Translations under genes and position numbers: made by a program
The notes under the pieces: model-generated
Told to the model about the DNA's origin: nothing
The model's database searches: none
Seen by the model: only the letters and a program-made list of their open reading frames with translations
DNA from: Deltaproteobacteria bacterium
GTDB taxonomy: Bacteria; Desulfobacterota_D; UBA1144; Nemesobacterales; Nemesobacteraceae
Reading direction: 5' to 3'
Assembly (NCBI GenBank): GCA_029262295.1
Contig: JAJCZR010000017.1
Location: 1-36,194, forward strand
Length of the DNA stretch: 36,194 bases
Shown: positions 23,917-28,390 of the stretch, in pieces
Layout of the letters: each line of letters starts with the position of its first letter
Numbering within the stretch: the first letter of the stretch is position 1

Positions 23917-23990
23917 GGGCTGTTAGCTCAGCCTGGTAGAGCATCTGACTCTTAATCAGCCGGTCGTAGGTTCGAATCCTACACAGCCCA
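23917..23990 (+). tRNA. tRNA-Lys (anticodon CTT)
   Basis: The cloverleaf is complete. The acceptor GGGCTGT pairs with ACAGCCC. The D arm is GCTC-AGCCTGGTA-GAGC. The anticodon arm is TCTGA-CTCTTAA-TCAGC (anticodon CTT at 34-36, reading AAG) with a T-C mismatch at the top of the stem. The T arm is GTAGG-TTCGAAT-CCTAC, with discriminator A. No CCA is encoded. The segment from the anticodon loop to the 3' end is the unit that recurs three more times downstream, so this gene is the insertion target of the following island. Confidence 0.95.
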
Positions 23991-24002
23991 CTTTATACAA
24001 AA

Positions 24003-24368
24003 TCAGGCGAAAAAAACTTCCTGCGGAGCCTCATCTTTTCTCAATCTGCTAATTTTCACGGTAACTTTCCTGTTTAGCTTGTTCAAAAAGCCAAAAAGTC
24101 TTTCCTGGGAAAATTTGTGATATTTACCGCTCATCAGCTTTGATACTTCTGCCTGGTCAATCCCCAGAAGATCAGAAATTTCGCGCTGTTTCAGTTTCTT
24201 CTTATCCAGAATCATGCGCACAGAATGACCCAGTTTTGCACGTGTTAAAAGCTCTTCTGGTTCATCAAGCCCAAGATCGGCAAAAACATTTGGGCTGCCG
24301 GTCGTGTGTTCATGAACGGCATCATGAATTTTTACAGTATCTTTCTTACTTTTCTTTCTTGCTGGCAT
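24003..24368 (-). CDS. HTH antitoxin (HigA-like, XRE family)
   Basis: The 121-residue protein has a helix-turn-helix at about 60-85 (LKQREISDLLGIDQAEVSKLMSGKYHKFS) of the type seen in XRE antitoxins paired with gp49/HigB toxins. The N terminus is basic and flexible (MPARKKSKKDT). Its start lies inside the toxin gene (23-base overlap), so it is translated second; toxin-before-antitoxin order is typical of HigBA. It probably neutralises the toxin and represses the operon. It ends 12 bases from the tRNA-Lys 3' end. Confidence 0.82.
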   Translation of the reverse strand: MPARKKSKKDTVKIHDAVHEHTTGSPNVFADLGLDEPEELLTRAKLGHSVRMILDKKKLKQREISDLLGIDQAEVSKLMSGKYHKFSQERLFGFLNKLNRKVTVKISRLRKDEAPQEVFFA

Positions 24369-24732
24369 TATTCGCTTTCTCCAGTTCTACCGCTTGTTTG
24401 TAGCGGGATTTAATTAATTCTATGTCCTTTTGTGGCGTTTTAATTCCTTTTTTTGCCTTCTTTATAAAAGCACATAAAGCATAAATATTTGTCCCAATCT
24501 TTACGGTATACAGGGTTCGGTAGGTGTTTGTATTAAACCTTTTTTTAATTTCATAAACACCTTTGCCAACACCTTTAAAAAACTCTGCATCAGGCGGCGT
24601 GACACCCTTTTGAACGTCATATAGTGCGACACCAATATCTTTCCTGACCTCTTGAGGAAAGCCTTTTACCTTATCCAGTGTATCACCCATCCATTGAATG
24701 GGTCTTACATTTTTTTCCTTGTCTTCCGGCAA
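24346..24732 (-). CDS. gp49/HigB-family toxin (RelE-like mRNA interferase)
   Basis: The 128-residue protein has the gp49/HigB pattern: IQWMGDTLDKVKGFPQEVRKDIGVALYDVQKG, FKGVGKGVYEIKKRFNTNTYRTLYTVKIGTNIYALCAFIKKAKKGIKTPQKDIELIKSRY. Members of this group cut mRNA on the ribosome. The start is a TTG at 24732 with GGAGA about eight bases upstream. It is coupled to the HTH antitoxin gene by overlap. This type II pair is the whole gene content of the first cassette behind tRNA-Lys, where it may act as an addiction module that keeps the island. Confidence 0.82.
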   Translation of the reverse strand: MPEDKEKNVRPIQWMGDTLDKVKGFPQEVRKDIGVALYDVQKGVTPPDAEFFKGVGKGVYEIKKRFNTNTYRTLYTVKIGTNIYALCAFIKKAKKGIKTPQKDIELIKSRYKQAVELEKANNASKKEK

Positions 24733-25002: not shown

Positions 25003-25043
25003 TCTTAATCAGCCGGTCGTAGGTTCGAATCCTACACAGCCCA
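25003..25043 (+). repeat. att-like copy of tRNA-Lys 3' part (perfect, 41 nt)
   Basis: These 41 bases are identical to 23950-23990 of tRNA-Lys, from the anticodon loop to the discriminator base. Sequence on either side does not match the tRNA locus, so identity starts sharply in the anticodon loop, a known crossover position for tRNA-targeting tyrosine recombinases. It bounds cassette A on the right. Confidence 0.9.
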
Positions 25044-25286
25044 TATTATAAAGTAAAAAGTACAGACCTGACCCTTCTCAACGTTTTGAAATCTCTTGAT
25101 ATCAAGGTCTAAATTATTAATTTCGTGATCCAATTTCTCAATCGTGAAATTAGTCCCAAATATGATTTTTTCGTATATATTCCATAGCAATAAAAAGTTT
25201 TTTATTTCGTCAAAATCTTTTGTCGAATATTCAGTTCCAAATTTTTCATTTGTCCATTCAATAATACTTTTATTATTAGTTGTCAT
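25032..25286 (-). pseudogene. Probable truncated ORF ending in the att repeat
   Basis: This 84-residue minus-strand frame begins MTTNNKSIIEWTNEKFGTEY and has FLLLWNIYEKIIFGTNFTIEKLDHEINN, which faintly resembles the start of HEPN-like helical proteins. The last 14 or so codons (VCTFYFIIWAV) run through the inverted repeat at 25050-25072 and into the tRNA copy, where the stop happens to fall. A protein tail made of repeat sequence indicates that the original 3' end was lost when the cassette junction formed. Function is unknown; the HEPN resemblance is weak. Confidence 0.5.
25050..25072 (+). repeat. Inverted-repeat partner, left (23 nt, contains AGTACAGACCTGAC)
   Basis: These 23 bases match the reverse complement of 27081-27103 with one mismatch. 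The copy lies six bases inside the tRNA fragment at 25003-25043. Together the two copies enclose cassettes B and C. Confidence 0.8.
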
Positions 25287-25306: not shown

Positions 25307-25804
25307 TTAATCCAATTTAAAAATGTATAGGGCTGCAATTGAAGCAATGTGTTTTTTTGTTATTTTAAAGTTATCAGGAAAGCAGATTATATAATCTGCA
25401 GAATTCTTTTTTTTTGTAATATAAATATTTTTTTTAGTATTCAAATCTAGATAAGAAGTTGTAGTGAGATTGATTGAAATATCTGAGCCTAGCTTATGAG
25501 AAAAATAAATATTTCTTGTAGAATCTGTTGCTTGAGTTGAGATGTTTATATTACAAAAAGATGATATACCTTCATGTAAATAAATATCAGTTGTATCTAA
25601 ACTTAGCATTGAAGAAGTTGTAGTGAAATTGATTGAAATATCTGTGTCTAGCACTAGCCTATGAGTAAAATAAATATCAGTTGTATCTGCTTGTAATACA
25701 TTTATCATTGGAGATGAAGTGAAATAGACTTCTCCTGCATAAATGGCATTAGTGTGAATTGCGGATAAAAGAATAAAGAATATTATTATATATGATTTTG
25801 TCAT
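25307..25804 (-). CDS. Exported protein with internal repeats, unknown
   Basis: I do not recognise this 165-residue protein. It begins with a signal peptide (MTKSYIIIFFILLSAIHTNA, cleavage near IYAGE). It then carries diverged repeats of a TTDIYFTHRL/TDISINFTTTSS type: DTTDIYFTHRLVLDTDISIN, DTTDIYLHEGI and TRNIYFSHKLGSDISINLTT. The repeats are visible in DNA too (near 25456-25530 and 25617-25690), so they arose by duplication. The C-terminal part (KKNIYITKKKNSADYIICFPDNFKITKKHIASIAALYIF) is basic with a hydrophobic end. Base composition is markedly AT-rich compared with core genes. It could be a beta-solenoid-like surface or host-interaction protein. Confidence 0.55.
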   Translation of the reverse strand: MTKSYIIIFFILLSAIHTNAIYAGEVYFTSSPMINVLQADTTDIYFTHRLVLDTDISINFTTTSSMLSLDTTDIYLHEGISSFCNINISTQATDSTRNIYFSHKLGSDISINLTTTSYLDLNTKKNIYITKKKNSADYIICFPDNFKITKKHIASIAALYIFKLD

Positions 25805-25971: not shown

Positions 25972-26038
25972 TAGCTCAGCCTGTTAGAGCATCTGACTCT
26001 TAATCATTCGGTTGCAGGTTCGAATCCTACACAGCCGA
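25972..26038 (+). pseudogene. Pseudo-tRNA-Lys fragment (61/67 identity), att-like copy
   Basis: From the D arm to the 3' end this matches 23924-23990 of tRNA-Lys without gaps, with six differences: one in the D loop, two next to the anticodon stem, two in the variable/T-arm region and one in the acceptor. The 5' acceptor strand is missing (TATTTTAG precedes it), and one T-stem pair is broken, so it cannot be a working tRNA. It is longer and more diverged than the other copies, which suggests it came from another strain's or an element-borne tRNA. It separates cassettes B and C. Confidence 0.8.
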
Positions 26039-26355: not shown

Positions 26356-27027
26356 ATGACATTATATTCATATTGTTTACTTTATGATTCAGGTGCTGCT
26401 CCAAATCCCTATTGGAATATCTGTACATTAGTAATTTGTAAACCACAGATTAGACGTGTGGCAAAAGTTGGAGATTGGGTAGTTGGCTTGGGTTCAAAAA
26501 ATTCCGAATTAGGAAATATTTCCAATAAAGTAATATATGCCATGAAAATTACACAAAAACTAACCATGCAAGAGTATGATAGATACTGCTTGAGTAAATT
26601 AACTGGAAAAATCCCAGACTGGCAGAGTAATGATTATCGAAAGCGTGTTGGAGACTGCATTTACGATTATTCATTATCTAAAAAATATCCATTACAAAGA
26701 GAAGGGGTTCATGATGAAACTAATAGTGATACAGATCTAAAAGGTGAATATGCGTTACTTTCAAATCACTTTTGGTATTTTGGGAAAAACCCAGAATTGT
26801 TGCCGAATAATTTATTAAATATAAGTCATTCTTCTCCAGGGCATAAATCAAAAGCTAACACTTCATTCACTACTCAATTTGTTCATTGGATTGAAAGTAA
26901 AAAAAAGATAATTGGTGAACCAGAATTAAAAAGCAAATTAATGGACAAACAAGATTGTAGAGGTGCTTGTGCGTATATAGATAAGGTAGGAAATGAAAAT
27001 GATGAGATAGAAGTTGAAAACCGGTGA
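26356..27027 (+). CDS. Nmad2-like (nucleotide modification associated domain 2) protein
   Basis: The 223-residue protein begins LYSYCLLYDSGAAPNPYWNICTLVICKPQIRRVAKVGDWVVGLGS, then VIYAMKITQKLTMQEYDRYC, GDCIYDY and LLSNHFWYFGKNP. These blocks match my recollection of the Nmad2 domain, described by comparative genomics around phage and bacterial DNA-modification genes. A long C-terminal part (about 150-223) is charged. AAAGGAGG five bases upstream is a near-perfect ribosome-binding site. Alone in its cassette with a 41-aa membrane peptide, it may be a solitary defence or nucleic-acid-recognition protein. The domain name is from memory and the role is not established. Confidence 0.7.
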   Translation: MTLYSYCLLYDSGAAPNPYWNICTLVICKPQIRRVAKVGDWVVGLGSKNSELGNISNKVIYAMKITQKLTMQEYDRYCLSKLTGKIPDWQSNDYRKRVGDCIYDYSLSKKYPLQREGVHDETNSDTDLKGEYALLSNHFWYFGKNPELLPNNLLNISHSSPGHKSKANTSFTTQFVHWIESKKKIIGEPELKSKLMDKQDCRGACAYIDKVGNENDEIEVENR

Positions 27028-27080
27028 AATTACTGAACTTTTTGTCAAATATACAGTAAATTCAGGGTCATAAATTCAGA

Positions 27081-27103
27081 GTCAGGTCTGTACTTTGTAC
27101 TTT
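27081..27103 (-). repeat. Inverted-repeat partner, right (23 nt)
   Basis: GTCAGGTCTGTACTTT and the next seven bases are the reverse complement of 25050-25072 with one mismatch. The copy lies 39 bases before the tRNA fragment at 27143. The surrounding gap (27028-27142) shows no gene. Confidence 0.8.
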
Positions 27104-27142
27104 TGCCTATGATATTAATTTATGTGCTGACAAATTTCCCTC

Positions 27143-27183
27143 TCTTAATCAGTCGGTCGTAGGTTCGAATCCTACACAGCCCA
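27143..27183 (+). repeat. att-like copy of tRNA-Lys 3' part (40/41)
   Basis: This matches tRNA-Lys 23950-23990 with one C-to-T change in the segment after the anticodon stem. It separates the Nmad2 cassette from the HTH/Fic cassette. The 12 bases ACAGCCCATAAT at its right edge (27176-27187) reappear at 28379-28390. Confidence 0.9.
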
Positions 27184-27233
27184 TAATAATTACTTTTAAG
27201 AACTTACCCTTTCCCCAATTTTCTTGCCTTGCA

Positions 27234-27270
27234 AACTTATAAGTTGACATTTAATTTCATAAAGTATACT
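27234..27270 (+). promoter_or_regulatory. Promoter and operator-like palindrome of the HTH/Fic pair
   Basis: TTGACA (27244-27249) and TATACT (27265-27270) are good -35 and -10 matches but with a short 15-base spacer. AACTTATAAGTT (27234-27245), a perfect 12-bp palindrome, overlaps the -35 box. AGTATAC at 27263-27269 recurs at 27308-27314 just before the start codon. This is the pattern expected for autoregulation by the HTH protein. Confidence 0.5.
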
Positions 27271-27315
27271 GTTAAGTAAACAAATCAAAGTTTAATGTAA
27301 ACTTGAGAGTATACA

Positions 27316-27792
27316 ATGAATATTGTAAAACATATAGCAAGAGAACAATGTGCCCAACTTGTAAATGAAGCAGCACAACGTATAGGAATGCTGCAAAAGC
27401 CGAAAGAGAGTTGGATTACAATTGTTAGAAAAGCACTTGGTATGTCTGGAGCACAGTTAGCAAGGCGATTAAATGTTACGCGCGGACATATATCAAAAAC
27501 AGAGAAAGCGGAATTGTCAGGAAGTGTAACAATTAAAACAATGGACAATATGGCTCGAGGTATGAATTGCCGGTTTGTTTATGCAATTGTACCAGAAAAA
27601 AGTGTGGAAGATATATTAAAAGAAAGAGCTGAGGCAAGAGCTAAAAATATGGTTGAGAAAGCTGCTTTGCAAGGAGCAATGGAAAATCAGGGATTATCAA
27701 AAGACCAAATGATTAAAGAGATTGAACGCCTCAAAAATGAATTGCTAAGAGAAATGCCTTCAGATTTTTGGAATGATTTTGAAGTCGAATGA
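27316..27792 (+). CDS. Mobile mystery protein A-type HTH regulator
   Basis: The 158-residue protein has an XRE helix-turn-helix at about 40-65 (KALGMSGAQLARRLNVTRGHISKTEKAELSG) preceded by MLQKPKESWITIVRKALG. A long charged helical tail follows (EDILKERAEARAKNMVEKAALQGAMENQ). This matches the family annotated as 'mobile mystery protein A' (TIGR02612), which travels with a Fic-domain partner. The last four bases overlap the fic start (ATGA). It probably acts as antitoxin and repressor. Confidence 0.82.
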   Translation: MNIVKHIAREQCAQLVNEAAQRIGMLQKPKESWITIVRKALGMSGAQLARRLNVTRGHISKTEKAELSGSVTIKTMDNMARGMNCRFVYAIVPEKSVEDILKERAEARAKNMVEKAALQGAMENQGLSKDQMIKEIERLKNELLREMPSDFWNDFEVE

Positions 27793-28388
27793 TTAATTAT
27801 CCAGAAGGGGTCACGCCCATTGATCCAGATGAAACTGAAGGATTGAAGCATAAACATGTTTCTACTAGGGAAGAACTTGATCAGCTGGAACAAGCAAATG
27901 TTCAGGCAGGTATGATCTGGTTATCTCGCAGCCGTCGAAAAGACATATTAAGTGAGGGCTTTGTTCGGGAGCTTCACAAACGCTTATTTGGAGAGGTATG
28001 GAAATGGGCTGGAATTTTTCGAATTACAACTAAAAATATTGGTGTTGATGTTGAGCAAATAGGAGTTCAATTAAAAATTCTTTTGGATGATGTAAATTAC
28101 TGGATCGAAAACAAGACTTACAGCTCAAAAGAAATAGCAGTCAGATTTCATCACAGACTGGTAAAAATTCATCTGTTTCCAAATGGTAATGGACGTCATG
28201 CAAGAATAATGGCAGATGCTATATTGGAAAAACTTTTTAAGCAACCACCAATAGGTTGGGCTGGGGGGCAGGATTTAGAGGAAATTAACGATAGGCGTAA
28301 AGAGTATATTCGTGCACTTCAAGCTGCAGATAATGAGAATTATAAACCACTATTTGAATTTGCAGATTTAAAGAAAAACAGCCCATAA
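27789..28388 (+). CDS. Mobile mystery protein B-type Fic/DOC enzyme
   Basis: The 199-residue protein has an intact Fic motif, HHRLVKIHLFPNGNGRHARI (HxFxPxGNGR-like), with catalytic His and the anion-binding GNGR. It begins NYPEGVTPIDPDETEGLKHKH and has LWLSRSRR/FGEVWKWAGIFR, the pattern of 'mobile mystery protein B' (TIGR02613). Fic enzymes usually transfer AMP or another nucleotide group to a target protein. No inhibitory (S/T)xxxE(G/N) motif is obvious, so control by the partner HTH protein is likely. The final residues KKNSP are encoded by sequence that matches the tRNA 3' end, so the gene's stop lies in the att remnant. Confidence 0.85.
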   Translation: MINYPEGVTPIDPDETEGLKHKHVSTREELDQLEQANVQAGMIWLSRSRRKDILSEGFVRELHKRLFGEVWKWAGIFRITTKNIGVDVEQIGVQLKILLDDVNYWIENKTYSSKEIAVRFHHRLVKIHLFPNGNGRHARIMADAILEKLFKQPPIGWAGGQDLEEINDRRKEYIRALQAADNENYKPLFEFADLKKNSP

Positions 28389-28390
28389 TT
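28379..28390 (+). repeat. 12-nt att remnant at the right end of the island
   Basis: ACAGCCCATAAT is identical to 27176-27187, the tRNA acceptor end plus cassette junction. It lies across the last codons and stop of the fic gene, marking the right boundary of cassette D. Beyond it the redox operon begins. The short length makes chance possible, but the position is exact. Confidence 0.6.

Follow-up and report, generated by a model that had tools for sequence, protein, structure and literature searches.

The closest described counterparts of the locus considered here are insertions that accumulate at the 3' ends of target genes. In streptococci, cis-mobilizable elements (CIMEs) accrete at tRNA-Lys(CTT) or at the 3' ends of other genes, have a classical size of 1.2-13 kb and carry cargo genes, and 215 of them have been reported at tRNA-Lys(CTT) in S. 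agalactiae (PMC7563491). The ssrA islands of Dehalococcoides lie in tandem downstream of an RNA gene and are bounded by 20-bp direct repeats of its 3' end; a serine recombinase is present in 16 of these islands, and 15 have no integration module (PMC3146451).

The locus lies in a 36,194-nucleotide stretch of contig JAJCZR010000017.1 (assembly GCA_029262295.1, a member of the Nemesobacteraceae), called the window below and analysed over its full length. Downstream of tRNA-Lys(CTT) follow, in order, a HigBA-like cassette, a cassette of unknown type, an Nmad2 cassette and a cassette with the mobile mystery genes mobA and mobB (the latter a fic gene), with tRNA-Lys fragments of 41-67 bp between them (Table 1). 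Each of these four cassettes is a single operon, and two are toxin-antitoxin-like. The initial annotation had taken mobA-mobB as the element; the pair does belong, as one cassette, to an insertion that lies at the 3' end of a tRNA gene, but the element is larger and comprises four cassettes in tandem.

Integrons and pdif arrays are also built from small single-operon cassettes, often toxin-antitoxin modules, that have no recombinase of their own and are bounded by attC or dif-like sites. The array in the window resembles them in its small, recombinase-less, single-operon cassettes and departs from them in its boundaries, which are tRNA 3' fragments. From its att repeats and gene content it looks like a set of accreted, integrase-less insertions of the CIME kind: the repeats come from one target gene (the tRNA-Lys and r2 to r4 for cassettes 1-3, with 12 bp only on the right side of cassette 4), and no integrase, relaxase or transfer gene occurs among the ORF families of the cassettes. 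As in CIMEs (PMC7563491), the insertions are integrase-less and tandem, and their att repeats derive from the 3' end of the target. Unlike CIMEs, they are accompanied in the window by neither a partner ICE or IME nor a relaxase or integrase gene, no integrase or resolvase was found in the genome, and each cassette consists of one operon in about 1 kb. With the ssrA islands the array shares tandem inserts behind an RNA gene and direct repeats of its 3' end; it differs in having tRNA-Lys as the target, repeats of 41-67 bp and no recombinase.

Table 1. Features of the tRNA-Lys(CTT) array, with positions in the window
Feature	Position	Strand	Evidence and remarks
Complete tRNA-Lys(CTT), which anchors the array	23917..23991	+	ARAGORN; Rfam tRNA 70.3 bits
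Cassette 1	24003..24732	-	HTH_37 antitoxin-like 24003-24368 (PF13744) and Gp49/HigB-like toxin 24346-24732 (PF05973), Pfam
r2, tRNA-Lys 3' repeat	25003..25043	+	41/41 identical; starts at anticodon loop
Cassette 2	25307..25804	-	ORF of 165 aa, internally repetitive, no family; extra 84-aa ORF at 25032-25286
r3, degenerate tRNA-Lys repeat	25972..26038	+	From D arm, nearly whole tRNA; 92% over 65 bp; Rfam tRNA 33.6 bits, model 8-63
Cassette 3, Nmad2 protein	26356..27027	+	Pfam PF18753, E 6e-60
r4, tRNA-Lys 3' repeat, left edge of cassette 4	27142..27183	+	41/42 identical (98%); starts at anticodon loop
mobA, mobile mystery protein A (HTH)	27316..27792	+	TIGR02612 153.6 bits, cut-off 122.6
mobB, mobile mystery protein B (Fic)	27789..28388	+	TIGR02613 276.3 bits, cut-off 124.4; Pfam Fic; IHLFPNGNGRHAR motif
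r5, right 12-bp copy	28378..28389	+	8 bases of tRNA 3' end + TAAT; encodes fic end

The tRNA-Lys array and its setting in the genome

The four tRNA-Lys copies are in register, and none occurs elsewhere in the genome. The anticodon loop, at which r2 and r4 begin, is often where tRNA-specific integrases make their crossover. Decay does not rise strictly with distance from the intact gene, since r3 has decayed further than r4. The recurrence of one tRNA in an assembly of 83 contigs might also reflect duplication or an assembly error around a single gene, but such an origin is very improbable, as the contents of the four intervals are unrelated, the repeats differ in extent and sequence (100%, 92% and 98% identity), and tRNA-Gly(GCC) has a fragment of the same kind among other neighbours. 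That fragment, an orphan 48-bp 3' portion starting at the anticodon arm (C61:4650-4697, L192), has, in the same genome, a DnaG-like primase gene on one side and a RelE/HTH pair on the other, with the intact tRNA-Gly(GCC) at the end of contig C15, and its presence supports insertion at tRNA 3' ends as the mode also at tRNA-Lys.

Among related genomes from this family and order, tRNA-Leu(TAG) follows tRNA-Lys(CTT) at about 4-75 bp with nothing inserted, and relative to the family the array is therefore an insertion. The exception is G020, in which 14.3 kb separates the two tRNAs; this interval was rejected as a comparable array because it holds ordinary genes and no tRNA fragments. tRNA-Leu(TAG) does not follow the array in the window and was not found in the assembly, where the match obtained was tRNA-Leu(CAG), so that the ancestral right flank is not recognisable and the sequence from 28390 onward may not belong to it. 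Adenosine deaminase was dropped as a marker of this flank, as it was not found in the organism's own genome.

A Pfam search of the genome found two tyrosine recombinases, identified by NCBIfam as XerD and XerC with scores above the cut-off, and a genome-wide search for serine recombinases and resolvases found none. Together with the ORF families, these searches agree with the absence of a mover from the mobA-mobB cassette, although with the assembly in 83 contigs an integrase could lie in a gap. No match to the tRNA-Lys att pattern was obtained in viral contigs, and no intact related element was found.

Two further features of the array were recorded. The 165-aa ORF of cassette 2 has a likely signal peptide, and its internal repeats resemble TTDIYFTHRL. 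The sequence AAAGTACAGACCTGACCC occurs in inverted copies around cassettes 2 and 3, at 25050-25075, just inside r2, and at 27078-27103, just before r4, and C30:6753-6894 of the same genome (G000) has it again as an inverted pair spanning about 140 bp; it is perhaps a REP- or MITE-like element.

The 12-bp repeat and the end of fic

A 12-bp repeat with its right copy over the last codons and stop of fic had been described from this DNA, and exact copies of ACAGCCCATAAT are indeed present at 27176-27187 and at the end of fic, where the codons read AAC AGC CCA TAA with the stop codon at 28386-28388. The left copy had been placed at the acceptor end of a tRNA; it is tRNA-derived, but at 27176 there is no tRNA gene, only the orphan 42-nt fragment r4, whose last 8 bases followed by TAAT make up the copy and which lies 3.2 kb downstream of the intact gene. 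If one mismatch is permitted, a third site appears at 25036, inside another tRNA fragment (mean of 0.25 matches in shuffles of the window).

The 12-bp repeat, though short, is real in the sense that it exceeds chance expectation. Apart from the array itself, the 36 kb contain a 3'-anchored tRNA suffix of at least 7 bases at the fic stop only, and among 3,536 sham windows of 120 nt such a suffix occurred in just 11 overlapping ones, all of which cover 28378-28385 itself. Under a Markov model the probability of a suffix of at least 8 bases within 60 bp of the fic stop is 0.0011, and that of the 12-mer is 0.00025. It is unlikely that the end of fic resembles the tRNA end by coincidence and that the pair merely resides downstream of the array: the match comprises just 8 tRNA bases plus TAAT, the C-termini of the family are variable, and a broader shuffle test for any repeat linking the region upstream of mobA to the fic end gave only p ~0.01-0.02, but the tRNA suffix falls at the very position at which the next repeat of the array would be expected, and mobA-mobB is sporadic in the phylum, with TIGR02613 over its cut-off in 15 of 58 genomes.

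The genes between the two copies are adjacent, joined by an ATGA overlap, and their products both score above the curated cut-offs, which places them in the mobile mystery A/B pair. To judge from the family, mobB is likely a toxin of the Fic type whose partner is an HTH protein; PADLOC matches to Fic-type candidates (PDC-S04) were to weak relatives only. FicTA modules likewise combine a Fic protein bearing an HxFxNGNGR-type motif with a small partner in an overlapping operon, but the partner in the window is an HTH protein of TIGR02612, and its role is a predicted one. The heptamer AGTATAC occurs on the + strand of the window at 27263 and 27308 only, both upstream of mobA and the second just before its ATG, and this pair is a possible operator.

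mobA-mobB in other genomes

Had the stop codon marked the end of a minimal mobile unit, as the initial annotation proposed, the stop region should recurrently match a local target. In about 98 mobA-mobB loci besides this one, the fic stop carried no tRNA match, and not one mobB protein among the 98 others has KNSP as its C-terminus, so that the KKNSP-ending homologue away from any tRNA, named beforehand as counter-evidence, did not turn up either. The coincidence with the stop codon is thus particular to the window. The mobB of G010 (L015) ends in FADIK, and that of the window in FADLK-KNSP, which means that the extra residues start beside the repeat. KNSP is not in itself diagnostic of a fusion, since mobB C-termini vary widely in length, with at least 6 residues past the conserved Phe in 21 of 95.

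A general link between mobA-mobB and tRNA genes was ruled out, as an adjacent tRNA was present in 1 of 80 loci from other bacteria, that of Methylophaga (L077). Otherwise adjacency is limited to tRNA-Gly loci, with fic about 1.05-1.2 kb upstream of the tRNA, and to a single orthologous site in the sister genus, where six genomes have mobA-mobB directly 3' of tRNA-Gln(CTG). No tRNA-Gln fragment was found at the fic ends of these six loci; in G006 and G007 tRNA-Gln(CTG) is present with little before the conserved downstream sequence. Three of the tRNA-Gln loci (L020, L022 and L038) have about 480 bp of extra sequence after mobB, at the end of which stands a copy similar to the fic stop region, and on a Mariprofundaceae contig (L088) 47 bp from the mobB 3' end are repeated (139-185 and 1412-1458), one copy being upstream of mobA and apparently the remnant of a former mobB. 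As att sites of the kind envisaged these repeats were rejected, since they are either fic 3' ends held in common or what is left of another mobB.

Of 61 testable loci, which come from diverse bacteria, 8 have mobA-mobB between tight direct repeats (31-143 bp, 76-96% identity), as against 1 of 90 sham intervals drawn from the ends of the same loci (L115 was left out of these counts as an indexing artefact), and the pair therefore recurs in small repeat-bounded inserts. Several of the flanking repeats derive from the 3' ends of host genes and one from a tRNA. In this last case, L077, the cassette holds mobA and mobB only, and the 53-bp repeat consists of 26 bp upstream of tRNA-Arg(CCT) and the 5' part of that tRNA, its right copy beginning 57 bp past the fic stop. 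In L074 (Mem_trans) and L120 (TsaD-family) the left copy is the 3' end of the gene, which is intact, and the right copy a fragment, the insert of L120 also containing a PIN-domain ORF; L128 has its right copy where a Competence-family gene ends. Among that part of the ORFs between repeats that was scanned, none recombinase-like was noticed. Where the flanking repeats are closest, in five inserts, the right one starts 15-75 bp past the fic stop. The idea of the pair as a small repeat-bounded insert thus gains from its enrichment between tight repeats and from L077 as a second integrase-less case at a tRNA, but a boundary on the stop codon does not recur.

These comparisons bear on whether the 12-bp copy at the end of fic is the true attR of a minimal unit, produced by a short crossover within the acceptor end (ACAGCCCATAAT), with a promoter and two genes forming the complete element and the gene end doubling as att. 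The exact match runs 4 bases past the tRNA end, as it specifically does in r4, mobA-mobB is the sole cargo, and the small inserts found elsewhere offer a precedent; even so, this origin seems doubtful, since the remaining repeats of the array span 41-67 bp and in the other delimited cassettes the fic stop lies outside the repeats, L088, with its remnant of another mobB, excepted. A wider form of the idea, in which mobA-mobB is a minimal integrase-less mobile cassette that has been caught repeatedly, in bacteria at large, at the 3' ends of tRNAs and genes by a recombinase acting in trans (the host Xer system or another), its att being able to overlap the end of its own gene, strikes us as decidedly unlikely.

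Proposed origin of the array and its meaning

The account that we favour, and hold to be moderately probable, is that integrase-less insertions accreted in tandem at the 3' end of tRNA-Lys(CTT), with cassette 4 ending in a truncated attR or at a short crossover. Each incoming element would have recombined at the tRNA, with r2 and r4 starting in the anticodon loop, and each insertion would have restored the tRNA and moved the older 3' fragments downstream; mobA-mobB is the outermost cassette and, by position, probably the oldest. The recombinase may have worked in trans, or may have departed together with a larger element that was once present. On its right, cassette 4 would have ended in a tRNA 3' fragment (attR), and a deletion may then have fused fic with the final 8 bases of that fragment, which would now supply the residues SP, part of the N and the stop codon; the other option is a shorter crossover at the acceptor end for this cassette. 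A small deletion in the window would explain both the FADIK ending in G010 and the placement of right repeats 15-75 bp past the stop elsewhere. The right 12-bp copy is thus probably a truncated attR fused to fic, rather than the boundary of a minimal mobile unit.

In the context of the mobile mystery family, the pair gains a concrete setting, in that it can be the sole cargo of small recombinase-less inserts between direct repeats that stem from tRNA or host-gene sequence, and since these inserts have no recombinase the mover of mobA-mobB is to be sought in trans. A second gain is an array of toxin-antitoxin-like cassettes, one operon apiece, anchored at a tRNA gene; its host genome has no tyrosine recombinases other than XerC and XerD.
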